From positions 62,001-126,000 of the forward strand of contig JASBVF010000002.1 of the NCBI GenBank assembly GCA_030147525.1: a DNA stretch of 64,000 nucleotides. Direction: 5' to 3'. The stretch comes from Bacteroidota bacterium. Lineage in GTDB: Bacteria; Bacteroidota; Bacteroidia; Chitinophagales; Saprospiraceae. Shown one piece after another: positions 6,529-31,558 of the stretch. Below the pieces are notes generated by a model. That model saw only the letters and a program-made list of their open reading frames with translations. It was not told the origin of the DNA and ran no database searches. Numbering within the stretch: the first letter of the stretch is position 1; each line of letters starts with the position of its first letter. A program made the translations under genes and the position numbers.

Positions 6529-9500
6529 TTATCGCAACAATACCAGCTTGCCGGTTGATGCCTCTACGGGCGTTTGCAAGCGATAGTAGTAAGTTCCCTG
6601 ACCTGCAAGATCAGCGGCATTCAGCTGAAACTCATTGTAGCCTGCCTTGAAATTGCTCCGAACAGTCTTCACCATCCGGCCGGTAGCGTCGAATATACTC
6701 AGGGTTACCTCCCGTGTTTCGGGCAGGTAAAAGCCGATGACGGCGCTTTCCCGGAAAGGGTTCGGGCGGACCTGAACGCTGAGCAGCGCCGTTTGACCGG
6801 TGCTTGTTTCATCCAGAAATTCAAGATGAACACCAAGCATTTCACCTGTTTCGTGGTAAGCCTCCGCCCGTGTGTATCCGGAGCTGATGTGCAGGCTTTG
6901 ACTTAATTCCAGGTTTGTTTTTGACTCAAAAACAAGGCTGAACAGCACCGTTCCGTCAGGCAGGGTGTTACTTTTGAAATCATGCCACGAGGTCGTCAGG
7001 ACACCCTCGCCAAGCAGGCGGAACCCGAAGTTTTGCTCTGTCAGGGAAGTCAGTTCTCCCGGTTCAAAGCGCAGGAATTCCATTTTACCGGGATCAAAGA
7101 TCAGTGTAAACTGGTAGCCGGCAATTTCATTGAAATTTTCGACGGTGAAATCTACCCGGCATTCCTTGTCCGGCTCCACCTTCCGGTTGGCCGTTTTCAG
7201 CAACAGCATTTCACCGCTACGATCTTCGCCAGGCTCTGCGAATTGATTCGGTACGGCGGAGTCGTTTACGTCGCCAATTTTCACTGCTAAAAACTTCACG
7301 CTATCCATGTTCCCACTGAAGTTATTGATGTTGTAAACTTCCGGAAACGATGTCTGGAACGGATTCGCCGGATTCGGGAAGTTGAATGCCTCATCCACGA
7401 AACGCCAGCTTTCGTTGTTCGGGAAATAATCGTTGATGATCAAAACTGCACGCTGTAAATCCACCAGGTCAGAGGTGGTAACGCTGTTTGACCGGTTGAC
7501 GTCTGCTGCGATCATTTTGTAAGGCGAGGACAACATTTCAATACCCAGAATATGACGGCGAATGAGCACGATGTCGTAAGTGGTGACGCCGTTCAGCAGG
7601 TTGGTGTCCTTTTTGGGAGTAACTGTGTAATCACCATTCAGCGGCACGCCGGGGAAACTGAAATTGCCATTTGAGCCAGTGATCGATGGTTGTGAAATGC
7701 CGTCATTGATCGTCACGGTCACTGCCTCCACGTCGAAGCCCTGCTCATTGGCGATAGCCCCGCCAACACTGGCAATGAGTGGCCCGTTACACACCCCCAT
7801 GTTATCCTGCACGACGAGAAAAGTTTGACAAAAATCCTGATTGCCGGAGGCATCCGTCACCCACATCTGGATGGGATTCTGGCCGATATCGTCGCAGTCA
7901 AAGATTGCATTGGTATTGTTGACATCAGATGAAAACGAAAACTTGAGCGTTCCCGGACAGTTGTCGAAGCTACCTGCATTAAAATCAGAAGCCCATGTCT
8001 CGATCATGCCGTCATCAATGATGCCGTCGCCATCCGTGTCGATGCCCATCAGCTCCACGATGAGGCCGTTTTTGCAGTAGGGCGTAGGCTTTTTATCATC
8101 TTTCACCTGGATGGTGATCGAACAGGAAGCAGTGTTGTTGCAGCCGTCAGATGCAGTATAGGTAGCAGTGTAGTTACCCGGAGCTACGTTTAAAAACGGC
8201 CCGTAGCCACTGCCAAAACTGCTCGTCACGCTGACCGTCACGTTTTGGCTGCAATCCTGCACATTGGTCAGTGGGGGCAGCGTGACGGTAGCCTTGCAGT
8301 TTTGACCAACACCCACTGTCATGTTGGAAGGGCAGGTAAAAGTTGGCGGCGTGTTGTCCGTCACCATGATCGTTTGCGTGCCTTGCCAGAGTCCCGTTGT
8401 GCCTCCCGGCACGTAGGTACACCAGTTGATGACCTTCCAGGTGCGCACGATTTTAAAACAGGCTGGTGGTGAAACCACAAAAACCTGATCCGTATGACTA
8501 GTGGCCAACAGCTCACAATCGCTATTCGTAACGGGAGCATTGTAGGGCGCAGGCAAATTGGCCGGCGAAAGGCTGGCGATGGAAACGCATCCCGTCACAG
8601 CGTAATTCGGGGGAAAAGTGACCGAAACCGGCGTATTGTCCACCATGGTGATGGTTTGGTTGCAGGTCGTACTGCTGCTTCCAACTGTCGCTTTCCAGGT
8701 GCGGGTGATGGTGCCGACGTCGCACATGTTCAGGTTGTTTACGTCGGTGTAAGTAATATTGGGTGTTCCGCATGGTGCAGAGCCGGTGGCCTGCCCGGTC
8801 AGGGCGAGGTTGGCCGGGTCGTCGGTGCAGTTGATTGTTTTGTTGGCCGGGCATTGGATGGTTGGCGGGAAATTGTTGTTCACATGAACGATGACCATGC
8901 AGGTGTTTGCATTGCCGGAGGCATCCGTGGCTTTCATTTCCACCATGACGTCGTTGCCAATGTCCGCACAGCAGAATTTCACCGTAGGGCCAAACACCGG
9001 CTGTGTGCCGCAACCTGCCTGCATCCGCCGTACCGTGAGCGTGATGGGGCTGCAATTGTCATAGCTGCCATCGTCAAACGTCTGAGCGTGCACGGTTGCA
9101 GTGCCAAGGTTATTGAGTGAAACGACCGTCAGCTGATCGCACACCACCGTGGGTGCGTCGTCATCAATCACCGTGAGCTTGGAGGTGCAGCTGGACGAAT
9201 TGCCGCAGGCATCCGTTACGTTGTAAGTAATGGTGTAAACGCCCAGGTTCACGTTGTGAATGAGGCCGCCGTTACCGTTCACGAGCCCGGCAGGCGTATT
9301 CATGGTGGTGGTGAAAGTAGTCGAGCAATTGTCGGAAATTCCCACCTGAGGCAGCATCACGGAAGCTTTGCAGAAGATGGAACTGGTCGTTCCGACAGTC
9401 AGGTCGGGCGGACAAGTGAGGGTCGGTGGTTGCATATCCTTCACAGCGATGATCTGCACGTGGTTCAAAATAGTGCCGGTACACCAGGATGCAACCGTCC

Positions 9501-10398: not shown

Positions 10399-10893
10399 CG
10401 GATTACTGAATTTGTTAAAGAATCGGTTCGTGGATATAATTTGTTAACAGCGGTCGAACTTCTTTCTTTCAATAAAAACCAGCCCGGGAAACAGCTGTGT
10501 CAATAGCCTTCCCGATGAACGGAATTATTTCAAACTGACAAAAGCACGCACGGCGGACTTGCCAGCATCAACAGCCTTGAAGGGGAAAATTCAAATTTTC
10601 CAATAGTTGTGGGTAGCGAAAGACAGGTGTAGCCAACCGGTTATTTGGCATGGATCAGCCGTGAATATTACGTGGCTGCACCGTTGCCAAATGCCTAATT
10701 GACGGCCCTGGCTTAGGGTAGATGTAAGCGTCTGTAATCAACTCCGGTCAGGAGATGAGGAACTTTGGCTTGACTTGTAATTGTGGAAGAAAATGAAAAA
10801 GGCTTGACAGCCAGGAAAGCGAGTGTGTAAAAATCGGTTTTGGACTTTTCATGGTGATGTTCACTTAAGGATTACAAAATCGGTTTGGTTATG
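10399..10893 (-). promoter_or_regulatory. Long non-coding leader of giant 1
   Basis: About 495 bases between the candidate start site and the ATG, with no convincing gene. It contains a box at 10858-10884, read on the minus strand as CCGATTTTGTAATCC then TTAAGTGAACAT, that resembles boxes in the other giant leaders. It also has a hairpin with five T on the minus strand (10474-10520) and the motif TTCTTTAACAAATT shortly before the ATG. Confidence 0.5.
10474..10520 (-). terminator. Weak leader hairpin with T run upstream of giant 1
   Basis: On the minus strand CGGGAA and TTCCCG can pair, with GCT/AGC inside, followed after seven bases by TTTTT. It lies about 75-120 bases before the giant 1 start codon. 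It is weaker than the equivalents upstream of giant 2 and the 145-aa gene. Confidence 0.33.
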
Positions 10894-10899
10894 TCGAAC

Positions 10900-10928
10900 A
10901 AAGGTAAGCGAAGGCAGGAATTTTCAAA
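10900..10928 (-). promoter_or_regulatory. Candidate promoter of giant 1
   Basis: The minus strand reads TTTG (10925-10928), about 17 bases, then TACCTTTG (10900-10907), which fits TTTG-N17-23-TAnnTTTG of Bacteroidetes. It implies a ~495-base leader. Confidence 0.6.
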
Positions 10929-10952
10929 ACGTTTTCAAATTATTTTTAATAT

Positions 10953-10986
10953 AAAAATCCCCTGCCTGCTGTTTGCAGACAAGGGA
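10953..10986 (-). terminator. Terminator of giant 2
   Basis: The minus strand reads TCCCTTGTCTGC, a short loop and GCAGGCAGGGGA, followed by TTTTTA. It has two internal mismatches, lies 88 bases past the giant 2 stop and sits just upstream of the giant 1 promoter. Confidence 0.78.
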
Positions 10987-11073
10987 CAATACTTAAAACG
11001 GTACTTTTTTTCCGGGTGATTGAGTGTTTATGGGGCAAACCCGACACAAACACTCAAACCCGCAAACACATTT

Positions 11074-14000
11074 CTATTGCAACAGAATCATCTTCTTCGT
11101 TGCGGTGTGGTCCTGCGCTTCCAACCGATAGAACAGCACGCCGCCCGAAGGCAGATCGCTCCGCTCAACCGTCACCTGGTTGTATCCTTCGCTAAAGTGC
11201 TGGTCGTAAGATTTCAGCACCTGTCCCGAAAGATCGTAGATGGTCAGTTTTGCCCACCCCGCTTCCGGTAAAGAGAAGCGGATGTGGGTCGCCTTTTTGA
11301 ATGGGTTAGGCTGGTTTTGGTACAGTTGAAAAGCAGTCCTTGTAGTCATCTCATTGTAGTTTGTGTATTCTAAGTTCAGGTTCAGGTCATTTTCTGCGCC
11401 GTCGTAAGCGAGCGCTTCCGTCATTCTGGAGTTCATTGCAAGCAGGTCATTCAAACGGCCTGTGCGGTTTGCTTTGAAAAGCAGGCTGAAAAGGGCGTCT
11501 TCTTTCGTCACGAACACAGGTTTGGTATCAAACCATGCCGCCGTGACGATACCGTCGGCAGGATTGGAAATCCCGAAGGACTGCTCCCCTGCCCTGGCCA
11601 AGACGCCCTCCTCGAGGCCTCGAAATTCCAGATCGTCAGTTTCAAATTCTAGCGTAAATTGTATTGCAATTAAATTTTGGTTGTCTTTTACCCGGAAAGG
11701 AATGATGAACTCCTCCCCTGCCTGTACCTCCCGATCTTCGAGCAGCAATGTCACTGCTTCTCCTCCGCTACGGTCGTCCGGACTGCTGCCGTTGAAGTTT
11801 ACACTGGCGCTGCAATTCAAATCGCCAATTTTCACGCCAATAAAATTCGCATCGAGTACATCCTGGCTGATATTGGCCACATCCACCACCTCCGGGAAAG
11901 CCGGCGAAAACGGATTAGACGGATTTGGGAACACGTAATCCTTTTTCACAAAGCGCCAGGAGGTGTTGTTTTGGAACTTGTCATTGATGTGGAGGATCAG
12001 TTTGCGAAGCTCCACAATGTCAAACGTTGTGACCATGCCGCTCCGGTTAACGTCGGCAGCAATGATTTTATACGGTGAAGTCAGCGGTGAAATACCCAAC
12101 ACATGCCGGCTCATCAGCACGAGATCGAAGGAGGTCACTCCGTTGAGGTAATCGTTGTCTTTTTCCGGTGAAATGGTGTAGGTGCCGCCATTCTGCAGCC
12201 CTCCAAGTTGGTAGGTTCCGTTAAGGTCCGTACCGGTAGCCATACCAGTGCTCACGGCATGAATGCTGACGCCGGGCAAAGATCCGCCGGTTTCGGTCTG
12301 TATTTCACCCGCCACCACAACCAGCGTATCATCCACCACCGGCGGACACAGCACCATGTTATCCTGAATAATAATATTGGTGATGCAGTAGTCACTGTTG
12401 CCTGCAAGGTCTGTCACCCAGAGCTCCACCAGGAAGTTTCCGATAAAATCACAGTCCAGGGTCAGGGCTGTCGCCGTTGGCGGCTGGGCCTGCCCGACGA
12501 AGCCGATGTTGTATTTCAGTTGTGATTTTGGCGTGCAGTTATCGAAGCTGTTGAAATTAAGCTGCGTCGCATTGATTGTCGCCATGATCTGGCCGCCCAT
12601 TTCCTGCAATTCAGCGACAATACCGGTGTTGCAGTACGGTGTCGGTTTAACCAGGTCGGTCACGGTGATTTTAGTTGAGCATGTGGACTTATTGCCACAG
12701 CCGTCTTTCACCGTAAAAGTGACGGTATTGATTCCCTGCGGGTAATTTCCGCTGGCGTTAGCGCCGTTGTAAGGGGAAGTATTGGTAAAAGTCAGATTTG
12801 TGCTGCAATCAGTCGCTGTTACGGACGGCAGGTTTACAAAAGCAACTCCGCAATCAGCACCCACACTCACCACCGTATCGGCCGGACAGGAAGTAATAAC
12901 CGGCGGCAGGTTGTCCATGATGGCGATTATCTGTTGATGAGTCCATCTTCCAACGGATGGGTTCGCCGGATTGTACTGGCACCAGTCTATGATTGTCCAG
13001 GTCCTTACAATTTTATAGCAGGCAGGATACGAGATATAAAACAACTGATCAGAATAGCTTGTCGCAAGCATAGCGCAGTTCGTCGCTGGCACCACCGGCA
13101 CGCTGTAATTCACCGGCGAAGTAGGTAAATCTTCCGGATCGAAATTATCCGCCGTCATGCAGACGTTGAAAACCGTGTAGTCAGGTGGCCACTGAATCGT
13201 CGAACCATTGTACGGATTGCTGTTCACCACTGTAATCGTCTGGGTACAAGACATGGAATTGCCACTTTGGTCTGTTGCGGTGAACGTTCTCGTGATCGTT
13301 CCTTCACCGCAGTTGCCAATGTTGATCTCCGAAACTTCCTCCGTGGTCGGTTCGCAGTTTTCAATCACTGTTGGCATTCCAAAAATCGACAGGTCGGAGT
13401 AATCATCCGTACATTCAATGGTTTGAGGCGCCGGGCAGATGATGATGGGTGGCAGTTTGTCCTGCACGATCACGAAATTCATGCAATCGGTAAACGAGGC
13501 GGGATTGACCAGCTCGCTCACCCGTAGCACGACCATGACGGTATCGCCCACATCGTCGCAGTTGAATGAAACGGACGAGGCAAAGTTGACACCGTCCCTG
13601 CTCGCAGTGAATACCAACGGGCTACAGTTGTCCGTACTTCCATCGTCAAAAACTGATGCAGGTAAAACGGCCACTCCTGTATTCGGTAGTCCCACCACCT
13701 TAAATTCGTCACAAATCGCAGTTGGCGTTTCAGTATCCGCTACGATCAGTACCGTGGTGCAGGTTGAGGCATTGAAACAACTATCCGTTGCTGTGTAAAC
13801 CAGCGAATGTGTCCCTTTCGGAATATTCTGAAGACCGGCAAAGCCCGTTATTTCAGATGAAACAAAGTACGGGCTGCAATTATCCGTCACTGTCGGAGCA
13901 GGCGGTGTAATGTCAGCGTTGCAAAAGCCATCATCCGTCGAAACAGTCAGCGTATCCAGACAGGTGATGACCGGAGGCGTTGTATCCTCGAATTTTATTT

Positions 14001-14895
14001 GTTGAATGCCCTGCTTCACCTCGCTCAGCACGCAGTTGTTGCTGACCGTCCATTCCCGCAGAATCAACAGATTACCGCCGCAAGTAGTCAGTGTGTCATC
14101 TTCCCAAACAACCGTAAAGTTACAGAAGCCGCCCGATTGAAGCGGATTGCCGTCAAGCGTTGGAAAGCCGGTCACTGACGGGTCAGCCGACGGAGACGCA
14201 CAGTCAATGATGGTCATGCCGGGAATGGTAACCATGGAAGTGTCCGGTTTCAAAATATGAATCACCTGGTCGCAGGTTGCGGTATTGCCGCCGGCATCCG
14301 TTACGGTCCAGGTTCGGGTTATCATGTTGATGAACATAGGATCGGCACAGTTCTGCGCAGGAGAATCTACGTAGCTTGTATCAGGGTTACCATCGCAGTT
14401 ATCATTGAACTCGATGGGCGCCAGGTCAGCAGGGTCAAGCGAAGCATTGCAGGCCACGGTGTCGTTGGGACATTCCGTGATGGAAGGCGGCTGCTTGTCT
14501 TCGACCAAGTAGAAAGAGCTGCAACTGTTGCCTGTTGTGATATTTTTTACTTCAATTTCAATAATCGTATTCAAGTGAGGGAAAACGGGAATATCGACAA
14601 TATCGACATCAAAGGCGATGGTATCGCCCAGCAAGGTCCTGGCAATCAGCCAGAAAGAATCGGTACAGCCGCCCGAGTTCGTAACGAATGTATCCACCAC
14701 TACGGTAGCGATACAATCCTGTCCGGGAGAAATATTGCCGGGACTTTGAGGAGAGCCGTTGGGGCAGGCCAGTGTACAATTTTGAGCTGACAGGTTTGAA
14801 AAAAGCAGGCATACAAACACGCAGCTCAACACGATCGAGGCAATCCTTCCGGGAGCCGCCCCGATACTTCGTGGGTGAAAAATGTTCTGTTTCAT
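11074..14895 (-). CDS. Giant HYR-repeat protein with dockerin-like, cohesin-like and T9SS domains (giant 2)
   Basis: 1273 residues with a signal peptide (VLSCVFVCLLFSNLSAQ, end near 38). HYR-type repeats follow with openings such as QPPSITECPNDTVAC, TPPVITCLDTLTV, LPPIIICPAPQTIEC and LPPVITSCPADTVV, alternating with DGGNTATCDQ-type segments. A CNA-B-like domain with GVSIHAVSTG leads into a dockerin-like segment (LNGVTSFDLVLMSRHVLG, then ADVNRSGMVTTFDIVELRK with Asp947). A cohesin-like domain follows from ~1045 (IAIQFTLEFETDDLEFR ... GIVTAAWFDT), then a T9SS domain from QPNPFKKATH (~1188). It is closer to giant 1 in length and make-up than to giants 3 and 4. It has its own promoter region, leader and terminator. 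An extracellular structural or adhesive role is likely. Confidence 0.88.
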   Translation of the reverse strand: MKQNIFHPRSIGAAPGRIASIVLSCVFVCLLFSNLSAQNCTLACPNGSPQSPGNISPGQDCIATVVVDTFVTNSGGCTDSFWLIARTLLGDTIAFDVDIVDIPVFPHLNTIIEIEVKNITTGNSCSSFYLVEDKQPPSITECPNDTVACNASLDPADLAPIEFNDNCDGNPDTSYVDSPAQNCADPMFINMITRTWTVTDAGGNTATCDQVIHILKPDTSMVTIPGMTIIDCASPSADPSVTGFPTLDGNPLQSGGFCNFTVVWEDDTLTTCGGNLLILREWTVSNNCVLSEVKQGIQQIKFEDTTPPVITCLDTLTVSTDDGFCNADITPPAPTVTDNCSPYFVSSEITGFAGLQNIPKGTHSLVYTATDSCFNASTCTTVLIVADTETPTAICDEFKVVGLPNTGVAVLPASVFDDGSTDNCSPLVFTASRDGVNFASSVSFNCDDVGDTVMVVLRVSELVNPASFTDCMNFVIVQDKLPPIIICPAPQTIECTDDYSDLSIFGMPTVIENCEPTTEEVSEINIGNCGEGTITRTFTATDQSGNSMSCTQTITVVNSNPYNGSTIQWPPDYTVFNVCMTADNFDPEDLPTSPVNYSVPVVPATNCAMLATSYSDQLFYISYPACYKIVRTWTIIDWCQYNPANPSVGRWTHQQIIAIMDNLPPVITSCPADTVVSVGADCGVAFVNLPSVTATDCSTNLTFTNTSPYNGANASGNYPQGINTVTFTVKDGCGNKSTCSTKITVTDLVKPTPYCNTGIVAELQEMGGQIMATINATQLNFNSFDNCTPKSQLKYNIGFVGQAQPPTATALTLDCDFIGNFLVELWVTDLAGNSDYCITNIIIQDNMVLCPPVVDDTLVVVAGEIQTETGGSLPGVSIHAVSTGMATGTDLNGTYQLGGLQNGGTYTISPEKDNDYLNGVTSFDLVLMSRHVLGISPLTSPYKIIAADVNRSGMVTTFDIVELRKLILHINDKFQNNTSWRFVKKDYVFPNPSNPFSPAFPEVVDVANISQDVLDANFIGVKIGDLNCSASVNFNGSSPDDRSGGEAVTLLLEDREVQAGEEFIIPFRVKDNQNLIAIQFTLEFETDDLEFRGLEEGVLARAGEQSFGISNPADGIVTAAWFDTKPVFVTKEDALFSLLFKANRTGRLNDLLAMNSRMTEALAYDGAENDLNLNLEYTNYNEMTTRTAFQLYQNQPNPFKKATHIRFSLPEAGWAKLTIYDLSGQVLKSYDQHFSEGYNQVTVERSDLPSGGVLFYRLEAQDHTATKKMILLQ

Positions 14896-14929
14896 TGTGA
14901 CTAAAATTTGTTAATAGATCTGGATTATT

Positions 14930-14977: not shown

Positions 14978-14999
14978 CACGCAAAGCCATAAGTCAGTT

Positions 15000-21500: not shown

Positions 21501-22152
21501 GCTTGCTATCGTAAGTAGTGCCGGTACAGGTATTCAGAATAACCCGGTTTCTTCCGTTACCAACGTTGTTGGTGAAGGTGTACCAAACACCAGGAGCGGT
21601 GTTGGAAGTACCACAAAATGCGGTGTTATCCAGTGTTGCGTTTACTGTTGTCCCTGTAGTGGCAGAAGGCACAACGATTGCCGTTGCGTTTGCACAAAGG
21701 TCGTTAGCCGGTGGCGCCGGAGGAACACAGCTAGTACAGCCTACTGTCAAGGTATGACAGACTGCATCCGTTGCACATGCGGCATTCACGTTCACGTGAA
21801 CATAAACAGGACCGCTAACTGTTACGGTTGCACTTACCGGAGAAAAGCCAAAAGCAAGTACAGTACCACCGGGAGTGCCCTGACGAATAGTCAGGTAGTT
21901 GCCTGCACCACCGGTACCTGTAAACTGGTAAGTCTGACCTGCTACAGCATTGTTCACCGTGCTATACTCTCCCGCATAGGCACAGGTGGTAATTGTGATG
22001 GGTGTGGGCGTAGTTGGAGCATTTGCTGTCCCAAAAGCAGTACCGTTTGTACACTGTCCGTTTGACTTAAAAGAAAAAGCCATACCGAACAGCGCTACCA
22101 AAACGAAACTCCTAAGCACCACTTTGCTATAAGTAGCGTTGAATTTTTTCAT
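15571..22152 (-). CDS. Giant HYR-repeat protein, duplicated type, with P-domain-like, dockerin-like, cohesin-like and T9SS domains (giant 3)
   Basis: 2193 residues. A signal peptide ends near residue 33 (MAFSFKSNGQC). The head (~34-280) is an extracellular beta region with PPANDLCANATAI and GVWYTFTNNVG, like pre-peptidase C-terminal modules. HYR-type repeats follow. At ~730-865 a region resembles the proprotein-convertase P-domain (LTGHTWLPDLNMVVTSPDG, then SGTWKFTISDNVGGDDG). Further repeats and a Cys-rich centre come next, with a DPDT repeat near 1584. The C-terminal part is a CNA-B-like domain, a dockerin-like segment (ADANRSNSVTTFDLVEIRK, Asp ~1875), a cohesin-like domain from ~1971 (VSGYQFTLNFDKQALEL) and T9SS from TPNPFATET (~2107). 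From about residue 590 on it aligns almost throughout with giant 4. The 141-aa gene lies 92 bases upstream on the same strand, probably in one operon. Confidence 0.9.
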   Translation of the reverse strand: MKKFNATYSKVVLRSFVLVALFGMAFSFKSNGQCTNGTAFGTANAPTTPTPITITTCAYAGEYSTVNNAVAGQTYQFTGTGGAGNYLTIRQGTPGGTVLAFGFSPVSATVTVSGPVYVHVNVNAACATDAVCHTLTVGCTSCVPPAPPANDLCANATAIVVPSATTGTTVNATLDNTAFCGTSNTAPGVWYTFTNNVGNGRNRVILNTCTGTTYDSKLTVFTGTCAALSCVAGNDDACGLQSQVAVTTTGANTTYRVLVHGFGSATGPFTLTASQLASITNIALGAQTACDPATNLYTQSLTLTYLNPPTTGTLLVNGQSFPITGSPQTVVLTGLTSNSLPVNVNASFSADPASAVTLPNFFTAPAKCNLCKVNCPADIVKTLGAGDCESFINYNITTSGDCTQAGTVSGFQGAFAPANWTVGLVNSNGGVNTAGAPASITLNGSDNGTGTAGQTNYTIPITFTGTVTFTYNYSTVDAGFFDPFGYTVNGVFTPVVNGFVLTQTGTVSVNVSAGDVFGFSQRTLDNIFGPGNTTITNFSGPASILLTPTQTAGLPSGSPFGIGVTTNTFTIPNGIGGTSTCSFKVTVNEYPNPTTTLVCNNLVQASLDATCSGVIGADMILEGGPYGCYDSRYTVMILSPLGANLGNTINASFIGPQWTVKVTDKVTGNSCWGKIKVEDKIAPVIVCRDQIIACTEDPVLAPAPAIVGPQPIIYEGLNNPIGEPGAPIPDIQEYSFDYSYFPAGTPVLDVNARIKLTGHTWLPDLNMVVTSPDGTTADVFSLTGCFGSEWPIDVTWDDEGAGGLTQCAALNAGGAPTQCLILPGVQSNTVLSVFDGKNASGTWKFTISDNVGGDDGVVEIVGLIVTVDLPAVPAMDNCSGEATLANGRLTYMDSNTPGACGGPSKTTIRTWTAKDNYGNSSSCTQKITYQRPAITNVDAPKDIKWSCEQYNAYQNITAATALHPYLADCDAVTASQLEMTCYNHTCNDNALNGSVNVDNPAINNTKQGACTSSPTATPGLENADVFALTGSGLPTVNGKPLNAICGISYEHEDIVINVCPGSFKILRKWTLIDWCANPVAIRQVNQVIKVVDESAPTITAPADATINVFNASTPPNSGPHAVCKGTVVVPPATGIADNCSGVTGLTTELWTVNAANQPVTIIATIPTNGGLFPNIPLYINGIPAKYLARYYAVDGCGNQAFDDAIYTLRDKVPPVAICDEITEVSVTNNSVGTGGSCSTLFAHNLDDGSYDNCAPVYFLIAKMDDSFSPNIFNRCYYPSRDFCCSDIGNETVIVLVLDSDPAPFFTSINQPALGCDGTPGLLLSATANYPFNYNTCMVTVQVTDKLPPILVSCPPNTRITCDNYANNFETQLQGLTGAQQCAALTAAGFGEPSFYDNCQVDITCNTNINLDQCLEGTITRTWTAKDGAGNSGTQPCNQTIFVDHVSDWVVEFPADITVNCGTNVPNFGEPKIFGETCELVGVSFKDEVFTVVPDACYKILRTWTLINWCVVGTHIDQEVVESSERAFQLAFPTEPCDFDGDGDCDTRTFRDSWRVSPKSKPGAAQATQSTDPDTDPDTDPWDGYITYQQVIKVNDTVDPVFTNGCQIPDVCIVDNSCGGTILLPTPQITDCSQNVTVTAQIKIGGVWLNGFGPYVNVAPGTYEVRYKAIDNCNNQKDCNTTVTVKDCKKPTPYCKNGLVIEIMQTGMIQIWASDFNAGSFDNCTSQSQLKLSFSSNVNNTSKTYTCDDLGQQPVQIWVTDLAGNQDFCETFIIIQDNMGACNDDPQIAGKVATAANQGVQGVSINLNSPGGFGNNTTTNANGAYNVNVPSGNDFTITPVLDVNPLNGVSTFDLVLISKHILGVQLLDSPYKIIAADANRSNSVTTFDLVEIRKLILFINTNFPNNTSWRFVKKSHVFANPANPFATQFPEVINLNNVSVNSLANDFVAVKIGDVNGSAAVNLTDNPDDRTMVGDLVLNADDVTVEAGNTYTVNFKATDFNVSGYQFTLNFDKQALELVEVVPGLADVSNFGMTMAKEGVLTTSWNADEAKQLAKDEVVFGLTFKALRSGRMSNLININSRYTVAEAYNANAELMNVAMSFNNQLAAGGFELYQNTPNPFATETNIGFYLPEATSAKLTISDVQGKVVKVIKVDAVKGYNQVSLKRGELGATGVMYYRLDTDTDSATRKMILVD
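17418..17447 (-). repeat. 12-bp coding tandem repeat (Asp-Pro-Asp-Thr)
   Basis: The unit coding for DPDT is present one time more here (STDPDTDPDTDPWDG) than at the matching place in giant 4 near 25705 (STDPDTDPWDG). This is an in-frame copy-number difference between the duplicates. Confidence 0.75.
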
Positions 22153-22244
22153 GAGATTCTATTTAGAATTCTTTATATTTTTAATTTTTGGATAAGTTCT
22201 TTTGAATAGAAAAATGGCAAGCCACCGTTCATTCAAGACAATCA

Positions 22245-22670
22245 CTAAGGAGTCGTTAAGAATGATTTAATCTGTAACTGCAGTGTCCTGAATTGCTGTG
22301 CATCCGCTGAGTTATTCAGGTTAAATCCCAACTTTAATGTGTTGATTGCGTCATCGTAAACCTGGGAGACAGGCTTACCCTGGTTTAGTCCACTCATCAT
22401 TTCTTTGTAGGCCAGTACTTCAAAGTACTTTTTCTTGTAGGCAGGTGAGTCAGGTTGCAAACTGTTGAGTTCAGCATTCAAAACCGGAAGTTTTTGCTGA
22501 AGCTTAACATTTGCCTGCTGAGCACCTATGAAGTTAGGTTGCTTGGTAGAGGTAGAGCTACTACCGACAAGCGTACCTGACTGCGCTGTGGCTACACCAA
22601 CTCCTAAAAATAGGAGGAGAGCGATAAGCCCAAGCGAATTCAGGATAAACTTGAAATTCACATTTCTCAT
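22245..22670 (-). CDS. Small secreted protein paired with giant 3
   Basis: 141 residues of unknown family. A signal peptide (LGLIALLLFLGVGVATAQS) ends near residue 31. It is followed by a Ser/Thr-rich stretch (SGTLVGSSSTSTKQP) and a mature domain of ~95 residues predicted to be helical (QQANVKLQQKLPVLNAELN, YFEVLAYKEMMSGLNQG, DAQQFRTLQLQIKSFL). It has no cysteines. It shares with the 145-aa protein at 30274 the VNFK start, the FLGV...AQS signal end, the TL/SS spacer and a C-terminal helical domain, so the two look like distant paralogs. Each sits 70-95 bases upstream of a giant gene on the same strand. Export, and a partner role with the giant protein, are inferred from this repeated arrangement. 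Confidence 0.8.
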   Translation of the reverse strand: MRNVNFKFILNSLGLIALLLFLGVGVATAQSGTLVGSSSTSTKQPNFIGAQQANVKLQQKLPVLNAELNSLQPDSPAYKKKYFEVLAYKEMMSGLNQGKPVSQVYDDAINTLKLGFNLNNSADAQQFRTLQLQIKSFLTTP

Positions 22671-23523: not shown

Positions 23524-23529
23524 ATGGAA

Positions 23530-23537
23530 CAAATATA
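23530..23537 (-). promoter_or_regulatory. Candidate -7 element for the 141-aa/giant 3 operon
   Basis: The minus strand reads TATATTTG, matching TAnnTTTG. No exact -33 TTG at the right distance. It lies downstream of the two terminators that close the giant 4 unit, as expected for a new promoter. Confidence 0.4.
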
Positions 23538-23615
23538 AGATTACAACAGCAGCCGGAAAAGCAGCCGTTCGATTAGCTGCAATACATGGTTGAACGAAGG
23601 ATGAGTTGAAAAAAG

Positions 23616-23649
23616 AAAAGGCCGGGAGTTTGGTTACTCCCGGCCTTTT
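23616..23649. terminator. Strong bidirectional terminator behind giant 4
   Basis: Perfect 14-bp stem AAAAGGCCGGGAGT with ACTCCCGGCCTTTT and loop TTGGTT. It is the second of two terminators after giant 4 and has no copy behind giant 3. Confidence 0.88.
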
Positions 23650-23665
23650 ATATGTTGATTTGAAT

Positions 23666-23703
23666 AAAAAAAGCCCCCCTCCAACACTCAGCGGAGAGAG
23701 GCC
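23666..23703 (-). terminator. Terminator of giant 4
   Basis: On the minus strand GCCTCTCTCC pairs with GGAGGGGGGC and seven T follow. It is the counterpart of 15401-15438 and belongs to the duplicated segment. Confidence 0.88.
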
Positions 23704-26700
23704 ATCCCAAAAACCGATTTAAGTATTTATCTCTTAAAATGGTTCCCGGATTTTTATTTCAGATCCAATCGCTTTGAAGCTTTTGGGCGGTTGGCGTTTG
23801 ACCGTTAGCTGCAGGCTTTCGCCAGCTGCTAACAGCCAAGTGCCAATCGCTATCATTGAATTTAATCAACCAAAATCATCTTGCGAGTCGCTGAATCAGA
23901 GTCTGTATCCAGACGGTAGTACATCACGCCGGTTGCGCCCAGCTCACCACGCTTCAGAGAAACCTGGTTGTAACCTTTAACGGCATCAACTTTAATGACT
24001 TTCACTACTTTGCCTTGTACGTCGCTGATTGTCAGCGTTGCAGAAGTTGCTTCGGGCAGATAGAATCCAATGTTGGTCTCAGTTGCGAATGGGTTCGGTG
24101 TATTTTGGTACAGCTCGAATCCACCTGCTGCCAACTGGTTGTTGAAGGACATTGCAACGTTCATCAACTCAGCATTAGCATTGTAAGCTTCTGCTGCCGT
24201 GTAACGGCTGTTGATGTTGATCAGGTTGCTCAAGCGACCGCTGCTCAACGCTTTGAAGGTCAATCCAAAGACAACTTCGTCTTTAGCCAACTGCTTCGCT
24301 TCGTCGCTGTTCCAGCTTGTCGTGATAACACCTTCTTTTACCATCGTCAGACCGAAGTTAGATACGTCGGCCAGGCCAGGTACAACTTCTACTAACTCAA
24401 GAGCTTGCTTGTCAAAGTTCAAAGTGAACTGGTAACCACTTACGTTGAAATCAGTTGCTTTGAAATTAACAGTGTAAGTATTTCCTGCTTCAACTGTTAC
24501 GTCGTCAGCATTCAACACCAGGTCACCTACCATGGTACGATCGTCAGCGCTACCAATCAGGTTCACTGCTGCGCTACCGTTAACGTCACCGATTTTCACA
24601 GCAACGAAATCGTTAGTCAATGCATCAGCCGTCAGGTTGTTCAGGTTGATCACCTCTGGGAATTGTGCAGAGAACGGATTAGCCGGGTTGGCAAATGTGT
24701 GGCTCTTCTTCACAAATCTCCATGAAGTATTGTTCGGGAAGTCCGTGTTGATGAACAGGATCAGTTTGCGGATTTCAACAAGGTCAAATGTGGTTACACT
24801 GTTTGACTTGTTAGCATCAGCTGCAATGATCTTGTATGGAGAATCCAACAATTGTACACCAAGGATGTGCTTGCTGATCAATACCAGGTCGAATGTAGAC
24901 ACGCCATTCAGCGGGTTCTCATCCAATACCGGAGTGATAGTGTAGTCACCGTTGGCAGGTACGTTTACGTTGTATGCACCGTTAACGTTAGTTACTGTGT
25001 TAGCACCGAAACCACTTGGGCTGTTTACATTGATGCTTACGCCTTCAACGCCTTCGTTGTCTTCAGTAGCAGTAACACCAGCGATCTGAGGATCGTCATC
25101 ACAAGCACCCATGTTATCTTGAACGATAATGAAGGTCTCGCAGTAATCCTGGTTGCCGGCGAGGTCAGTCACCCACATTTGGATTGGCTGCTGGCCAAGG
25201 TCATCGCAAGTGAAAGTAGCACCAGTGTTGTTAACGTTAGCAGAGAATGACAGCTTCAGCTGGTTCTGTGCAGTACAGTTGTCGAAGCTACCAGCATCGA
25301 AATCAGAAGCCCAGACATCAACCATACCTGTCTGCATCAGTTCGATCACGAGACCGTTCTTGCAGTAAGGAGTTGGCTTCTTGCAATCTTTCACTGTTAC
25401 AGTGGTGTTGCAATCTTTCTGGTTGTTACAGTTGTCGATTGCTTTGTAGCGTACTTCGTAAGTACCAGGAGCAACGTTTACGTATGGGCCGAAGCCGTTC
25501 AACCAAACACCGCCGATTCTGATCTGAGCAGTAACAGTTACGTTAGCGCTGCAATCAGTGATTTCAGGTGTAGGCAGAAGTACTGTTCCACCGCAAGTGT
25601 TGTCTTCGATACAAACATCAGGAATCTGGCAGCCGTTGGTGAATACAGGATCAACTGTATCGTTCACCTTGATAGTCTGCTGGTAAGTGATGTAGCCATC
25701 CCATGGGTCAGTGTCAGGATCAGTTGACTGGGTAGCTTGTGCTGCACCAGGCTTAGATTTTGGAGACACTCTCCAGCTATCACGGAATGTACGAGTATCA
25801 CAGTCGCCGTCACCATCGAAGTCACATGGCTCAGTTGGGAATGCCAACTGGAATGCACGCTCAGATGATTCAACAACTTCCTGATCGATGTGAGTACCAA
25901 CAACACACCAGTTGATAACAGTCCAAGTACGCAGGATCTTGTAGCAAGCATCAGGAACAACATTGAATACTTCATCTTTGAAGGATACACCTACGAGTTC
26001 GCAAGTTTCGCCGAAGATCTCAGGCTCACCGAAATCAGGAACGTTAGTTCCACAGTTTACAGTGATGTCAGCAGGGAATTCAACAACCCAGTCAGAAACG
26101 TGGTCTACGAAGATGGTCTGGTTACATGGCTGAGTGCCGCTGTTACCGGCGCCGTCTTTAGCAGTCCAAGTACGAGTGATAGTACCTTCGAGGCACTGAT
26201 CGAGGTTGATATTCGTGTTGCAGGTAACGTCTACCTGGCAGTTGTCGTAGAATGAAGGCTCACCGAAACCAGCAGCAGTCAATGCAGCACATGCCTGAGC
26301 ACCAGTCAGACCCTGGAGTTGAGTCTCAAGGTTAGAAGCATAGTTGTCGCAAGTGATGCGGGTGTTTGGTGGACAGCTTACGAGGATCGGAGGCAACTTA
26401 TCAGTTACCTGTACAGTCACCATGCAAGTGTTGTAGTTGAACGGATAGTTAGCAGTTGCAGAAAGCAACAGACCAGGCGTACCGTCGCAACCCAATGCTG
26501 GCTGGTTGATAGTAGTGAAGAATGGAGTAGGATCGCTATCCAATACAAGCAGGATCACAGTTTGGTCTCCGATGTCTTCACAGCAGAAGTCACGTGATGG
26601 GTAGTAGCAACGGTTGAAGATGTTCGGGCTGAAAGAGTCGTCCATCTTCGCCATCAGGAAGTATACTGGAGCACAGTTGTCGTAGCTACCATCGTCCAGG

Positions 26701-28660
26701 TTGTGGGCGAACAGAGTAGAGCAGCTTCCGCCAGTTCCTACGCTGTTGTTGGTAACAGATACTTCAGTGATTTCGTCGCATACAGCTACTGGTGGAACTT
26801 TGTCACGCAGTGTGTAGATAGCATCGTCAAATGACTGGTTGCCACAGCCGTCAACAGCATAGTAGCGTACCAGGTATTTGGCAGGAAGACCGTTGATGTA
26901 GAGTGGAATGTTCTGGAACAAGCCACCGTTAGTAGCGATCGTTCCAATCTGAGTAACAGGCTGGTTAGCAGCGTTAACTGTCCAAATCTCAGTAGTCAAA
27001 CCAGTTACACCTGAGCAGTTGTCAGCAATACCAGTTGCTGGTGGAACAACTACAGTACCTTTACATACGGCGTGTGGGCCGCTGTTAGGTGGTGTGCTTG
27101 CGTTGAAAACGTTGATCGTTGCATCAGCAGGAGCTGTGATAGTAGGAGCTACTTCATCAACCACCTTGATAACCTGATTTACTTCACGTACAGCAACTGG
27201 GTTTGCACACCAGTCGATCAATGTCCACTTACGAACGATCTTGAATGTACCTGGGCAAATGTTAACCAGGATATCTTCGTGCTCGTAGCCGATACCGCAG
27301 ATAGCAACCAGTGGCTTGCCTTCAACAGTTGGAAGACCAGAACCAGTCAATGCAAATACGTCAGCGTTCTCAAGACCAGGAGTAGCGAAAGGAGAAGAAG
27401 TACAAGCACCCTGCTTAGTGTTGTTGATAGCAGGATTGTCAACGTTAGCAGCACCGTTCAGTGCGTTGTCGTTGCAAGTGTGGTTGTAGCAAGTCATTTC
27501 CAGCAGTTCTGCTGTAGCAGCATCGCAATCAGCGAGGTACGGGTGCAGAGCAGTAGCTGAAGTAATATTCGGGTATGCATTGTACTGCTCGCAAGACCAC
27601 TTAATGTCAGTAGGAGCAGCTACGTCGTCGATAGTTGGACGCTCGAAAGTAATAGTCTGCGTACAGCTGGCAGAGTTGCCATAGTTGTCAGTAGCAGTCC
27701 ATGTTCTTACAGTAGTCTTACTTGGACCACCACAAGCGCCTGGAGTAGAGCTGTCGATGTAAGTCAACTTACCATTAGCAAGTGTAATTGGTGTAGTACA
27801 GTTGTCCATCGGAGCGATAGCTGGCAAGTTAACAGTAACAGCCAAACCAACTTCTTCGATAAGACCATCATCAGCAGCAAAGTTGTCAGAAATAGTGATT
27901 GTCCAATCACCACCTGCGTTTTCGCCATCGAAGCCATCCAACACCTGGCAAGAAGCACCAGGAGCACAAACTGGCTGGATAGGAGCACCACCGGCATTCA
28001 ACTGAACACAAAGTGTCAGGTTACCAGCACCTTCATCATCAAACCATACGTCGATTGGCCATTCAGCGCCAAAGCAACCAGTCAAAGTGAAGATATCAAC
28101 AGTGGTACCACCTGGGTTTTCAACAACGATATCAAGGTCAGGCAACCAAGTGTGGCCAGTCAGCTTGATCCGTGCGTCAACATCCAAAGTTGGCGTACCA
28201 GCAGGGATATAGTTATAGTCGAAAGTGTAAACACGTGGAGAAGTACCAGGACCGTTCTCGATAATCTCGTTTGGCTGCTGAAGCAGGATCTGAGGACCAA
28301 CCAAAGCCGGAGCTGGATCGAGTGGTGCGGTTTCAGTACAAGCAACAGTTACGTCACGGCACTCAAGTGTTGGAGCAAGCTTGTCTTCAACAACGATTTT
28401 ACCCCAGCAAGAGTTACCAGTTTGGTTATCAGTAACTTTAACAGTCCACTGTGGGCCGATGTGAGAAGCGTTAACAACGTTGCCGAGGTTAGCACCGAGT
28501 GGGCTCAATACCATTACAGTGTAACGAGTATCGTAGCAACCGTAAGGACCACCTTCGAGGATTTGATCTGCGCCAAGTGTAGCAGAGCAAGATGCATCCA
28601 GAGATACCTGTACGAGGTCGTTACAAACCAAAGTAGTAGTTGGGTTTGCAAACTCGATAA
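23666..28660 (-). repeat. Duplicated segment, copy 2 (C-terminal three quarters of giant 4 plus terminator)
   Basis: Partner of 15401-20390. Similarity starts at the HYR repeat with TQTAGLPSGS and LVCN and runs through the stop codon into the terminator. The two N-terminal heads outside it are unrelated. Confidence 0.82.
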
Positions 28661-30200
28661 CAGTTACGTCGAAGCAGCAGTTACCAACGTTACCTTGTAC
28701 GTCAGTGATAGTGAAGCAGTTGGTAGTTGTACCAATCGGGAACTCAGAACCTGAAGGAAGACCTGCAGTTTGAGTTGGCTCTGGATCAACAGAAAGACCC
28801 TGATAAGTCACAGAACCGTTGAACACACGTGGGTTGAAAGTAAAGCCCCAAGGAGTGTTGGAAGCAGACCCCAGGTTCAAAGTGATCGTACCGTCAGTGT
28901 ATGTCTGGTTTGCACCGTTACCGTTTGTATAGTTGTGAGCTGCAGAAATAGCCTGCAGAGCGATACCTGTAACACCAGGCTGAATTACGAAGCTGGTAGA
29001 AGCAGGTGTAATTGTTCCGTTACCTGGGAAAGGACCAGAGAAAGGACCAGTGGTAGCATCAGCTGTAGCAGTCAGCGTCCATGCGCCGGCATTGCTTTGG
29101 AAACCAACATAAGTACCTGGCTTGGTGTAAACGTTCACCATAGTACCGGTAGAAATGTTCATTCCGAACTCAGTGATAGTCAATGGAGCACCAGAAAGGT
29201 TGTTGATTTCAAAGTAAACCATACCACCAACTGAACCACCGTTACCACCATTGTTGATCGTAGCCAAAGTGGCAGAAGGACCAACGAAAGGACAGTTGTC
29301 AGTAGCAGTTACACTGTAGTTAACGAATGCAGAGCACTCGCCAGCACCGAGGTTAATGAAAATTGGAGCTGGGCAGTGAACCACAGGATCAACCTGGTCA
29401 GATACGTTAACGATCAATTCATCGTCATCGAGGAATCCACCAGCTGAATTACGCAATACAAAATTGATTGTATTAGGACCTGAAGGCAGACCTGAAATAG
29501 TAAGCGGACCGGCGAGCGGTACAGCTACTGTTGTAGTAACACCACCTACAGTGTAAGAAAGTGTACCACCGTCAGCACAACCAGCAGGAGCGATAGTAGG
29601 TGTGATTTGTACAGAAGCAGTACAATCATTAGCACCTGTGCTTGCGTTAAGGTCTGGACCTGCATCAACTGTACATGGCTCAACAGCAGTGATCTGAGCA
29701 GCCCAACCTGAGAAGGTAACAGAACCGTCAGAATCAAATGCAAACGTCAAAGCACCAGTAGCGCCCATTGCACGGACCGTATTTGGTGCGATGTTGTTAG
29801 GTGCTGTAGATCCCCACCATCCACCGTTACCGAATGGGTTCGGAGCACCGATTGGGAAACCGTTTGAAGATGCAATTTTAGGAGAAGCGATGGAAGGACC
29901 ATCGTAAACGTACAATGCATCCCAGTTTGCTTCTGTTTGGAAGGAAGAGAAGACAGCCTGTACTTTGTTAGCAGGTACGTTTGGTGAAAACGTAGTTCTG
30001 TTTGCGGCAAAGGAGCCATAGCCGTTACCATAGTTACCAGCAGGGCCACCGTTGTCGTAGTAGTTGTAAAATGCAGGAGGCGTCACTGTAAAGTCCTGGC
30101 CGCCAGTAGAGTGGTTAACGTTCGTCTGAGCGTTACCTTGACTCCACATCAGCATGCCTAAGAGGACAACTCCCAAGTATGTCAACGTTCTTTTTTTCAT
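23862..30200 (-). CDS. Giant HYR-repeat protein, duplicated type, with CUB-like head, P-domain-like, dockerin-like, cohesin-like and T9SS domains (giant 4)
   Basis: 2112 residues. A signal peptide ends near 25 (LGMLMWSQGNAQ). The head (~30-175) resembles a CUB domain: YDNGGPAGNYGNGYGS, then WDALYVYDGPS and GALTFAFDSDGSV. HYR-type repeats follow with DPVVHCPAPIFINLGAGEC. A P-domain-like region lies at ~657-790 (LTGHTWLPDLDIVVENPGG, DWTITISDNFAADDG). From there the order equals giant 3: Cys-rich repeats, CNA-B-like domain, dockerin-like segment (ADANKSNSVTTFDLVEIRK), cohesin-like domain (VSGYQFTLNFDKQALEL) and the sorting domain TPNPFATET to the end. The 145-aa secreted protein is 73 bases upstream. 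CUB domains often bind carbohydrate or protein ligands, so the different heads may give the duplicates different targets; this is inferred. Confidence 0.9.
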   Translation of the reverse strand: MKKRTLTYLGVVLLGMLMWSQGNAQTNVNHSTGGQDFTVTPPAFYNYYDNGGPAGNYGNGYGSFAANRTTFSPNVPANKVQAVFSSFQTEANWDALYVYDGPSIASPKIASSNGFPIGAPNPFGNGGWWGSTAPNNIAPNTVRAMGATGALTFAFDSDGSVTFSGWAAQITAVEPCTVDAGPDLNASTGANDCTASVQITPTIAPAGCADGGTLSYTVGGVTTTVAVPLAGPLTISGLPSGPNTINFVLRNSAGGFLDDDELIVNVSDQVDPVVHCPAPIFINLGAGECSAFVNYSVTATDNCPFVGPSATLATINNGGNGGSVGGMVYFEINNLSGAPLTITEFGMNISTGTMVNVYTKPGTYVGFQSNAGAWTLTATADATTGPFSGPFPGNGTITPASTSFVIQPGVTGIALQAISAAHNYTNGNGANQTYTDGTITLNLGSASNTPWGFTFNPRVFNGSVTYQGLSVDPEPTQTAGLPSGSEFPIGTTTNCFTITDVQGNVGNCCFDVTVIEFANPTTTLVCNDLVQVSLDASCSATLGADQILEGGPYGCYDTRYTVMVLSPLGANLGNVVNASHIGPQWTVKVTDNQTGNSCWGKIVVEDKLAPTLECRDVTVACTETAPLDPAPALVGPQILLQQPNEIIENGPGTSPRVYTFDYNYIPAGTPTLDVDARIKLTGHTWLPDLDIVVENPGGTTVDIFTLTGCFGAEWPIDVWFDDEGAGNLTLCVQLNAGGAPIQPVCAPGASCQVLDGFDGENAGGDWTITISDNFAADDGLIEEVGLAVTVNLPAIAPMDNCTTPITLANGKLTYIDSSTPGACGGPSKTTVRTWTATDNYGNSASCTQTITFERPTIDDVAAPTDIKWSCEQYNAYPNITSATALHPYLADCDAATAELLEMTCYNHTCNDNALNGAANVDNPAINNTKQGACTSSPFATPGLENADVFALTGSGLPTVEGKPLVAICGIGYEHEDILVNICPGTFKIVRKWTLIDWCANPVAVREVNQVIKVVDEVAPTITAPADATINVFNASTPPNSGPHAVCKGTVVVPPATGIADNCSGVTGLTTEIWTVNAANQPVTQIGTIATNGGLFQNIPLYINGLPAKYLVRYYAVDGCGNQSFDDAIYTLRDKVPPVAVCDEITEVSVTNNSVGTGGSCSTLFAHNLDDGSYDNCAPVYFLMAKMDDSFSPNIFNRCYYPSRDFCCEDIGDQTVILLVLDSDPTPFFTTINQPALGCDGTPGLLLSATANYPFNYNTCMVTVQVTDKLPPILVSCPPNTRITCDNYASNLETQLQGLTGAQACAALTAAGFGEPSFYDNCQVDVTCNTNINLDQCLEGTITRTWTAKDGAGNSGTQPCNQTIFVDHVSDWVVEFPADITVNCGTNVPDFGEPEIFGETCELVGVSFKDEVFNVVPDACYKILRTWTVINWCVVGTHIDQEVVESSERAFQLAFPTEPCDFDGDGDCDTRTFRDSWRVSPKSKPGAAQATQSTDPDTDPWDGYITYQQTIKVNDTVDPVFTNGCQIPDVCIEDNTCGGTVLLPTPEITDCSANVTVTAQIRIGGVWLNGFGPYVNVAPGTYEVRYKAIDNCNNQKDCNTTVTVKDCKKPTPYCKNGLVIELMQTGMVDVWASDFDAGSFDNCTAQNQLKLSFSANVNNTGATFTCDDLGQQPIQMWVTDLAGNQDYCETFIIVQDNMGACDDDPQIAGVTATEDNEGVEGVSINVNSPSGFGANTVTNVNGAYNVNVPANGDYTITPVLDENPLNGVSTFDLVLISKHILGVQLLDSPYKIIAADANKSNSVTTFDLVEIRKLILFINTDFPNNTSWRFVKKSHTFANPANPFSAQFPEVINLNNLTADALTNDFVAVKIGDVNGSAAVNLIGSADDRTMVGDLVLNADDVTVEAGNTYTVNFKATDFNVSGYQFTLNFDKQALELVEVVPGLADVSNFGLTMVKEGVITTSWNSDEAKQLAKDEVVFGLTFKALSSGRLSNLININSRYTAAEAYNANAELMNVAMSFNNQLAAGGFELYQNTPNPFATETNIGFYLPEATSATLTISDVQGKVVKVIKVDAVKGYNQVSLKRGELGATGVMYYRLDTDSDSATRKMILVD

Positions 30201-31550: not shown

Positions 31551-31558
31551 TATTTTTG
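31551..31558 (+). promoter_or_regulatory. Candidate -7 element for the CRTAC1-type gene
   Basis: TATTTTTG matches TAnnTTTG and lies 24 bases before the ATG at 31583. It also argues against the TTG at 31556 as the start. Confidence 0.5.

Follow-up and report, generated by a model that had tools for sequence, protein, structure and literature searches.

In a 64,000-nucleotide stretch of contig JASBVF010000002.1 from a Saprospiraceae genome of the phylum Bacteroidota (GCA_030147525.1; contig positions 62,001–126,000; the whole stretch is called the window below), four giant open reading frames (ORFs) form a neighbouring array on the minus strand (window positions 6529–30200). Their chains share the order HYR repeats, CnaB-like X module, dockerin, cohesin, and sorting domain of the type IX secretion system (T9SS), and the last ~410 residues constitute an X–dockerin–cohesin–sorting cassette. 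Few known protein clasps are as strong as cohesin–dockerin pairs, which have been studied chiefly in cellulosomes. Judging from its genes, the bacterium probably builds a cellulosome-like surface coat from non-enzyme proteins. In the explanation favoured here, which we hold with evenly balanced confidence, the giants belong to a genome-wide, T9SS-borne, non-enzymatic cohesin–dockerin surface assembly, in which they are self-docked by default and exchangeable with scaffoldins.

Domain Identity of the Giants

The place of the array and the common order of the four tails had been proposed by an initial annotation made by eye, with which ORF calls and domain profiles agree. The calcium-loop strings quoted there are found in all four giants; the quoted cohesin string is present in giants 1, 3, and 4, and giant 2 reads IAIQFTLEFE at this place. 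In whole-protein Pfam scans, Cohesin (PF00963) scores 20.9, 28.4, 38.8, and 38.3 bits in giants 1–4 (cut-off 24.1; giant 1 is under it), and Dockerin_1 (PF00404) scores 18.5, 23.3, 15.9, and 13.6 bits (cut-off 22.9). In the Pfam check proposed there, the cohesin passes in three of the four giants and the whole-protein dockerin in giant 2 only. Scored by segment in the genome search, giants 1–3 exceed the cut-off for Dockerin_1; the matches listed there do not include giant 4. CarboxypepD_reg (cut-off 32.3), a stand-in for the X module, stays below threshold in giants 1, 2, and 4 and is not among the whole-protein Pfam matches listed for giant 3. HYR exceeds its Pfam cut-off in giants 1, 2, and 4 and falls under it in giant 3 (19.7 vs. 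21.7), and the NCBIfam T9SS type A sorting domain (TIGR04183) is above cut-off in all four.

The doubt raised by these modest single-protein Pfam scores is mostly lifted, because the tails of relatives match and a profile search finds solved structures. When 94 aligned tails, including the four from the window itself, are scanned singly with Pfam at E ≤ 0.01 (laxer than the Pfam cut-offs), Dockerin_1 matches 90 tails, Por_Secre_tail 86, Cohesin 75, and CarboxypepD_reg 73. The tail profile recovers solved dockerins at E 1e-4 to 7e-4 (4dh2_B, 1.1e-4; 4uyq_B, 5e-4) and solved cohesins (4ums_A, E 1.6e-4; 4uyp_A, E 9.6e-4), and is better in this respect than a single-sequence search against solved structures, which gives weak matches only (best E 0.24). 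These matches exceed chance and support the reality of the dockerin and cohesin domains of the giants. The genome encodes the T9SS sortase PorU (1289.6 bits), and the giants, with their type A C-terminal domain, are predicted T9SS cargo. Pfam, NCBIfam, and the tails of relatives uphold the earlier view that dockerin and cohesin share one predicted T9SS-secreted chain.

Structure of the Dockerin–Cohesin Tail

The 410-residue tail of giant 3, modelled with AlphaFold2 from 94 sequences, has a mean predicted local distance difference test score (pLDDT) of 93.7 and a predicted template modelling score (pTM) of 0.83. The model contains three dockerin helices (tail residues 67–78, 86–92, and 102–112) and nine strands in the cohesin region, and a 60-residue segment after the dockerin (tail residues 111–170) reaches pLDDT 97–98 and includes several invariant residues. 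A second AlphaFold2 model, restricted to dockerin, linker, and cohesin (264 residues), has a pLDDT of 92.1 and a pTM of 0.88. To judge by title, every one of the 50 Foldseek matches listed for this second model is a cohesin or a chain that bears one, in keeping with a cohesin beta-sandwich fold; for single-cohesin chains among the matches listed, template modelling scores normalised by target are 0.40–0.63. The entry 2o4e, among the Foldseek matches listed, is taken here to be a cohesin. With the full tail as query, cohesins head a list that also holds other proteins.

The dockerin is a duplicated F-hand with two loops and three helices, and D69 and D104 are invariant according to model and alignment. 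Dockerins generally have calcium ligands at positions 1, 3, 5, and 12 of both loops; here the set is complete in loop 2 (D93, N95, S97, D104). Positions 10–11, presumably the recognition positions in this numbering, are T-F/Y in loop 1 and T-F/L in loop 2. On the cohesin side, Q222 is present in 135/135 tails.

Copies in the Genome and Distribution

The cassette profile matches this genome 27 times. At 15 places a single ORF has both dockerin and cohesin, one match is a dockerin-only giant, and the other 11, spread over five ORFs, contain a cohesin alone. Distribution was assessed in 100 genomes including the source, of which 14 belong to the genus, 47 to the rest of the family Saprospiraceae, and 39 to other families of the order. 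At E ≤ 1e-10 the cassette is matched in 57 of the 100 genomes and in 56/61 of the family (14/14 in the genus, 42/47 in the rest of the family, 1/39 in the other families); within the 42, the only match in G035 (E 4e-12) may be partial. In a phylum-wide sample of 395 genomes (E ≤ 1e-20), the cassette is found in seven, five of Saprospiraceae and two of others. Among 78 named related loci (best of 567), 54 are labelled Saprospiraceae, four Lewinella cohaerens, one Cyclobacteriaceae, and one Chitinophagales, and a cassette search of plasmid records gave no match. With a whole scaffoldin-like protein as the query, 96/100 family genomes match at E ≤ 1e-30; this count is not used for the distribution of tandem-cohesin proteins, because many of the matches fall in the SprB-repeat part.

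Separate Dockerins and Cohesins in Linked Genes

The two halves of the cassette also occur apart. X–dockerin units that match our own profile at E < 1e-20, are distinct, and have an intact 3′ end number 149 in all fetched loci, four further ORFs cut by a sequence end being excluded. In 136 of the 149 the unit is followed by one cohesin, in 13 the protein ends within 4–22 residues, and in none does anything else follow; the ratio 136:13 is not a census, because each locus entered the set through its likeness to the cassette, a cohesin, or a dockerin-only giant. A T9SS type A (T9SS-A) match by our own profile follows the cohesin in 135 of the 136 fused units; in the remaining one (contig C31), the cohesin precedes SprB repeats and a Pfam Por_Secre_tail.

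Contig C54 of this genome carries, in order, a giant, a one-cohesin ORF (284 residues, one cohesin and a T9SS-A domain), a tandem-cohesin ORF of 1541 residues that combines three cohesins with SprB repeats and a CHU_C type B domain, and lastly a PorP/SprF gene; the three genes before PorP/SprF are separated by 65 and 88 bp. The giant, one-cohesin, and tandem-cohesin genes stand in this order on one contig in 11 of the 14 genomes of the genus; for G009 and G010, loci L129 and L081, assigned through their coordinates, supply the one-cohesin gene. In G013, the giant and the one-cohesin gene are on one contig and the tandem-cohesin gene is on another; the trio is not among the matches listed for G006 and G011 (80% and 85% complete).

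Contig C34, also of this genome, carries PorP/SprF, a five-cohesin ORF (1892 residues, SprB repeats, CHU_C type B domain), and a dockerin-only giant of 1089 residues, which has HYR and ends directly after its dockerin; a search of this giant found neither a cohesin nor a T9SS sorting domain. The three and five cohesins of the C54 and C34 tandem-cohesin ORFs are counted by our own profile, and Pfam passes three stretches in each. A cohesin gene of 1877–1900 aa and a dockerin-only giant lie on one contig in six of the 14 genus genomes; five cohesins are counted in four of these six, and 3–4 are among the matches listed in the other two. All eight tandem-cohesin genes tested adjoin PorP/SprF, with neighbours chosen by eye. 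Tandem cohesins number 3–5 in the genus listing and six in a cut ORF of locus L084. Pfam reveals no carbohydrate-binding module (CBM) at E ≤ 0.1 on the two scaffoldin-like proteins scanned, and no catalytic domain in the four window giants and the C34 dockerin-only giant; with the giant of contig C31, these are the giants scanned in full. The presence of this larger cohesin/dockerin set, with its tandem-cohesin proteins and dockerin-only giant, favours the structural system that had been suggested from the four giants.

Other proteins with these domains occur in the same genomes. Locus L201 (genome G003, contig 146) has three giants in a row, namely dockerin-only, dockerin–cohesin, and dockerin-only. 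On contig C56 (L030, 4638–5246 and 5324–5926, both minus strand), two neighbouring proteins of ~200 aa have one cohesin each; no sorting domain was found in this pair, and one has a lipoprotein-like start by eye. Paired cohesin ORFs of 194–322 aa on one contig are listed for 10/14 genus genomes, the source included. An alpha-amylase-family protein (contig C51; L031, 1623–4904, plus strand) and a 501-aa protein (contig C46; L032, 136–1638, minus strand) end in dockerins whose recognition positions are, by eye, A-I and V-L in both repeats; no sorting domain was found in them, and these residues possibly point to other partner classes. Contig C48 encodes a 1651-aa SprB-repeat, type B T9SS protein (L199, 2284–7236, minus strand) with one cohesin, which is matched by the scaffoldin profile (2e-23) and not by Pfam. 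ORFs of 1529–1588 aa with a single listed match are present in 12/13 other genus genomes, without implying orthology to the C48 protein.

Indirect Evidence for Dockerin–Cohesin Pairing

Four indirect signs suggest that the dockerin and the cohesin belong together. Pairing is favoured because the two modules are found joined in a single chain as well as encoded separately by linked genes, and because fused and free dockerins agree in their recognition positions: Thr occupies position 10 of loop 1 in 126/136 fused and 13/13 free forms, and position 10 of loop 2 in 122/136 and 13/13. Among the 47 family genomes outside the genus, 37 have the cassette (E ≤ 1e-10) together with a scaffoldin-type cohesin (E 1e-20), five the cassette only, none the cohesin only, and five neither (Fisher p 1.6e-4, a statistic that ignores kinship). 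The single-chain pTM of 0.88 (0.83 for the whole tail) stands well above the 0.43–0.60 estimated for independent bodies. A rival idea is that the cohesin-like and dockerin-like domains are structural folds only, one an Ig-like sandwich and the other an EF-hand spacer, which have lost mutual binding. Loop 1 of the dockerin is degenerate and covariation between the dockerin/linker and cohesin columns is weak, which would fit such a loss, as would the many cohesin-like domains outside cellulosomes for which we know of no partner. We nevertheless consider this idea improbable, given that the recognition-loop residues and Q222 of the cohesin are kept, that both halves occur free in linked genes, and that the cassette and scaffoldin-type cohesins co-occur.

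The joint between the two modules is short, with 14–18 residues between profile matches in 129 of the 136 distinct copies, and includes an Arg in 134/136 fused copies (115/135 at the aligned column itself). Arg is found in 5/88 segments before cohesins of ORFs that lack an X–dockerin, a control that was scored more leniently. Together with the pTM of 0.88 for dockerin–linker–cohesin in one chain, the narrow joint length and the joint Arg would suit a purely intramolecular lock, in which the dockerin always sits on its own cohesin as a rigid, calcium-stabilised stalk base and no inter-chain network forms. This explanation is unlikely; it would leave the tandem-cohesin proteins and the contig-linked dockerin-only giants without a role, and free and fused dockerins share recognition residues.

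The initial annotation had further envisaged that the giants join head-to-tail into a fibre or cross-link with one another, and had named packing of the two segments within one chain, with no free binding face, as a result that would speak against this. The structure prediction, with its defined dockerin–cohesin arrangement in one chain, comes near to such packing. A head-to-tail fibre is not supported by the geometry, as both modules adjoin at one C-terminal end; pairing in trans between modules so placed would give a comb or carpet. Cross-linking of the latter kind, with the dockerin of one giant on the cohesin of its neighbour, is quite improbable: every chain has both modules and 15 places in the genome encode such a pair, but the defined arrangement predicted by AlphaFold2 lies inside one chain, and the position of both modules at the same protein end gives no reason to expect a linear fibre.

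Several observations also weigh against self-docked giants that exchange with scaffoldins. When the X module is omitted, pLDDT drops to 75–78 in stretches of the linker and to 59 at the joint, and a single-chain prediction cannot separate self-docking from domain-swapped docking in trans. The predicted dockerin–cohesin contact face could be non-canonical. Position 5 of dockerin loop 1 is mostly L/M where D is usual, which leaves the full set of calcium ligands present in one loop and not in both. Common descent could also account for the short joint and its Arg. Covariation is weak (mean-field direct coupling analysis [DCA] of 135 tails; effective number of sequences, 118) and rests on a minority of sequences: among the top 100 pairs, dockerin–cohesin pairs occur at 0.93 times and linker–cohesin pairs at 1.44 times expectation, and the top pairs involve K88, which is altered in 8/136 sequences. 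The giants' cohesins seem to belong to another subfamily than the scaffoldin-type ones, and the two may therefore serve different partners. The co-occurrence table uses two profiles, at different thresholds, that each contain a cohesin; a cassette match at E ≤ 1e-10 may be partial, as in G035. In this table, five family genomes match the cassette without a scaffoldin-type cohesin at E 1e-20; two of these five, G015 and G032, have 15 and 22 cassette-profile matches.

Proposed Model for a Surface Assembly

From the computed domain identity, fixed domain order, gene clusters, distribution, and defined predicted single-chain arrangement, we infer binding, calcium dependence, anchoring, choice of partner, and a coat. 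By analogy with their family, the giants would be exported by the T9SS and fixed at the outer membrane through the C-terminal sorting domain. The calcium-loaded dockerin would pair with a cohesin at the protein base. Docking to the cohesin of the same chain is favoured as the default because the joint is short, narrow in length, and Arg-bearing and the pTM is 0.88; the tail would then be locked as one rigid unit. Docking in trans is also argued for, because dockerin-only giants sit near tandem-cohesin genes. The tandem-cohesin proteins, with their type B T9SS domain and adjoining PorP/SprF, would act as anchored scaffoldins for the dockerin-only giants, in which a sorting signal was looked for and not found; exchange with self-docked giants may also take place. 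The signs of self-docking and the existence of dockerin-only giants taken together lead to the mixed scheme favoured here, in which self-closed giants are exchangeable with anchored scaffoldins. The outcome would be HYR adhesin stalks arranged laterally, as a coat or brush, and neither an enzyme complex nor a head-to-tail fibre.

A more specific proposal is tentative and rather doubtful. It holds that Saprospiraceae possess an adhesin-based, cellulosome-like T9SS assembly in which PorP/SprF-linked scaffoldins with at least three cohesins display HYR giants, that signal-less giants come to the surface, or remain there, only via docking to a T9SS-exported cohesin, and that the built-in cohesin keeps the dockerins of most giants closed until exchange. 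If dockerin-only giants are indeed exported by docking, this would be a new way of using the T9SS.

The role of cohesins and dockerins outside cellulosomes is described as an open question in the available passages of two papers (PMC5244752, PMC9012536). The present system is family-wide and multi-copy in T9SS bacteria, with linked genes and a natural version of each half, and the role question can therefore be tested with small recombinant modules. What is new here is that the halves are also found apart, and the wider system is of more interest than the four giants alone.

Comparison with Known Systems

The combination of HYR giants, X–dockerin–cohesin–T9SS cassette, PorP/SprF-linked scaffoldins, and signal-less clients was not found among the matches listed in the open-licence literature, and the matches listed include no description of cohesin–dockerin assemblies in Saprospiraceae, which is weak evidence of absence. 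The initial annotation knew of no described system with this exact layout. A dockerin and a cohesin on one chain have been described elsewhere; Archaeoglobus fulgidus, for example, has such a chain. For anaerobic methanotrophic (ANME) archaea, the available passages report noncellulosomal chains that join a dockerin to as many as five cohesins (PMC9012536, PMC5244752) and tie the abundance of HYR, cohesin, and dockerin to adhesion (PMC5244752). The ANME case differs in concerning an archaeal surface with ABC-transporter binding and S-layer proteins, and these passages mention neither T9SS nor PorP/SprF.

Adaptors of Ruminococcus flavefaciens such as ScaC have a single dockerin and a single cohesin on one chain, according to the part of the source available (PMC4081043). 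The giants resemble them in bearing one dockerin and one cohesin on a secreted chain, and differ in that 15 places per genome encode such a chain and the cohesin follows the dockerin, at the sorting end. To our knowledge, ScaC-type adaptors have no T9SS domain and no HYR stalk. As in CipA Coh9-X-DocII (PDB 4fl4), a CnaB-like X module directly precedes the dockerin and a cohesin is on the same chain; chain I of 4fl4, which we take to be the Coh-X-Doc chain, is among the Foldseek matches listed. Unlike in type II/III scaffoldin X-dockerins, the order is X-Doc-Coh instead of Coh-X-Doc, and the likeness in dockerin sequence is weak.

The tandem-cohesin proteins also resemble SprB/SprF in their SprB repeats, CHU_C type B domain, and adjoining PorP/SprF gene. 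SprB–SprF is a T9SS type B adhesin with a PorP/SprF partner. We know of no cohesins in SprB, whereas here three or more cohesins stand at the head of the protein.

For Candidatus Stygibacter (Cloacimonadota), dockerin enzymes have been proposed together with a putative scaffoldin that bears a T9SS-type domain (PMC8542988). From the passages available, the likeness lies in tandem cohesins on a protein whose C-terminal domain is of T9SS type, alongside dockerin proteins; the dockerin proteins listed there are mostly enzymes and the scaffoldin has CBMs, whereas here they are HYR giants, mostly with a cohesin of their own. Of the features of a cellulosome, a tandem-cohesin scaffoldin is found here, and dockerin-bearing enzymes and a scaffoldin CBM are not, in the proteins scanned; the exception among enzymes is the alpha-amylase-family protein, with its other recognition residues by eye. 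In a seagrass banquette metagenome, cohesin-related genes are assigned to two Bacteroidetes metagenome-assembled genomes in the part of the report available (PMC8547425), and a term search of the accessible text of a genome survey of cellulosome bacteria (PMC11557425) finds no mention of T9SS or Saprospiraceae.

Other Features of the Window

The coordinates of the giants and their domains are collected in Table 1. Of the eight direct-repeat families in the array, six lie within giants 3 and 4 (one of these recurs in giant 1), a seventh occupies the stretches immediately after giants 3 and 4, and the last is shared by giants 1 and 2. These repeats are evidence of duplication only.

Table 1. Giants of the array and their assigned domains (window positions).
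Feature	Position	Strand	Description
Giant 1	6529–10398	-	1289 aa; HYR repeats, X module, dockerin, cohesin, T9SS type A sorting domain
Giant 1 dockerin	7435–7611	-	Own-profile match; Pfam 18.5 bits, under cut-off; segment passes cut-off
Giant 1 cohesin	6814–7209	-	Own-profile match; Pfam 20.9 bits, under cut-off
Giant 1 T9SS type A sorting domain	6535–6780	-	Pfam, NCBIfam, and own profile
Giant 2	11074–14895	-	1273 aa; architecture as giant 1
Giant 2 dockerin	11986–12162	-	Pfam above cut-off; own profile
Giant 2 cohesin	11359–11754	-	Pfam above cut-off; own profile
Giant 2 T9SS type A sorting domain	11080–11331	-	Pfam, NCBIfam, and own profile
Giant 3	15571–22152	-	2193 aa; tail as giants 1 and 2; Pfam P_proprotein mid-protein
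Giant 3 X (CnaB/CarboxypepD_reg-like) module	16636–16803	-	Model strands; Pfam 26.6 bits, under cut-off of 32.3
Giant 3 dockerin	16459–16635	-	Three model helices; Pfam 15.9 bits as whole protein, under cut-off; segment passes
Giant 3 post-dockerin segment (SWRFV...NPF...FPE...KIGDVN)	16279–16458	-	High pLDDT in full-tail model; invariant residues
Giant 3 cohesin	15844–16236	-	Pfam above cut-off; Foldseek
Giant 3 T9SS type A sorting domain	15574–15828	-	NCBIfam and own profile
Giant 4	23862–30200	-	2112 aa; tail ~90% identical to giant 3 tail
Giant 4 dockerin	24750–24926	-	Own-profile match; Pfam 13.6 bits, under cut-off
Giant 4 cohesin	24135–24527	-	Pfam above cut-off
Giant 4 T9SS type A sorting domain	23865–24119	-	NCBIfam and own profile

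The P_proprotein (proprotein-convertase P-domain) matches in the middle of giants 3 and 4 score 22.0 and 20.5 bits (cut-off 21). Directly upstream of giants 3 and 4, two related small proteins of 141 and 145 aa with signal-peptide-like starts are encoded on the minus strand (22245–22670 and 30274–30711); a Pfam scan of the two gave no match, and relatives are present in the giant-bearing loci L071, L072, and L138. Two FG-GAP/ASPIC-UnbV proteins are encoded next to the array, at window positions 31556–35005 on the plus strand and 35783–38068 on the minus strand.

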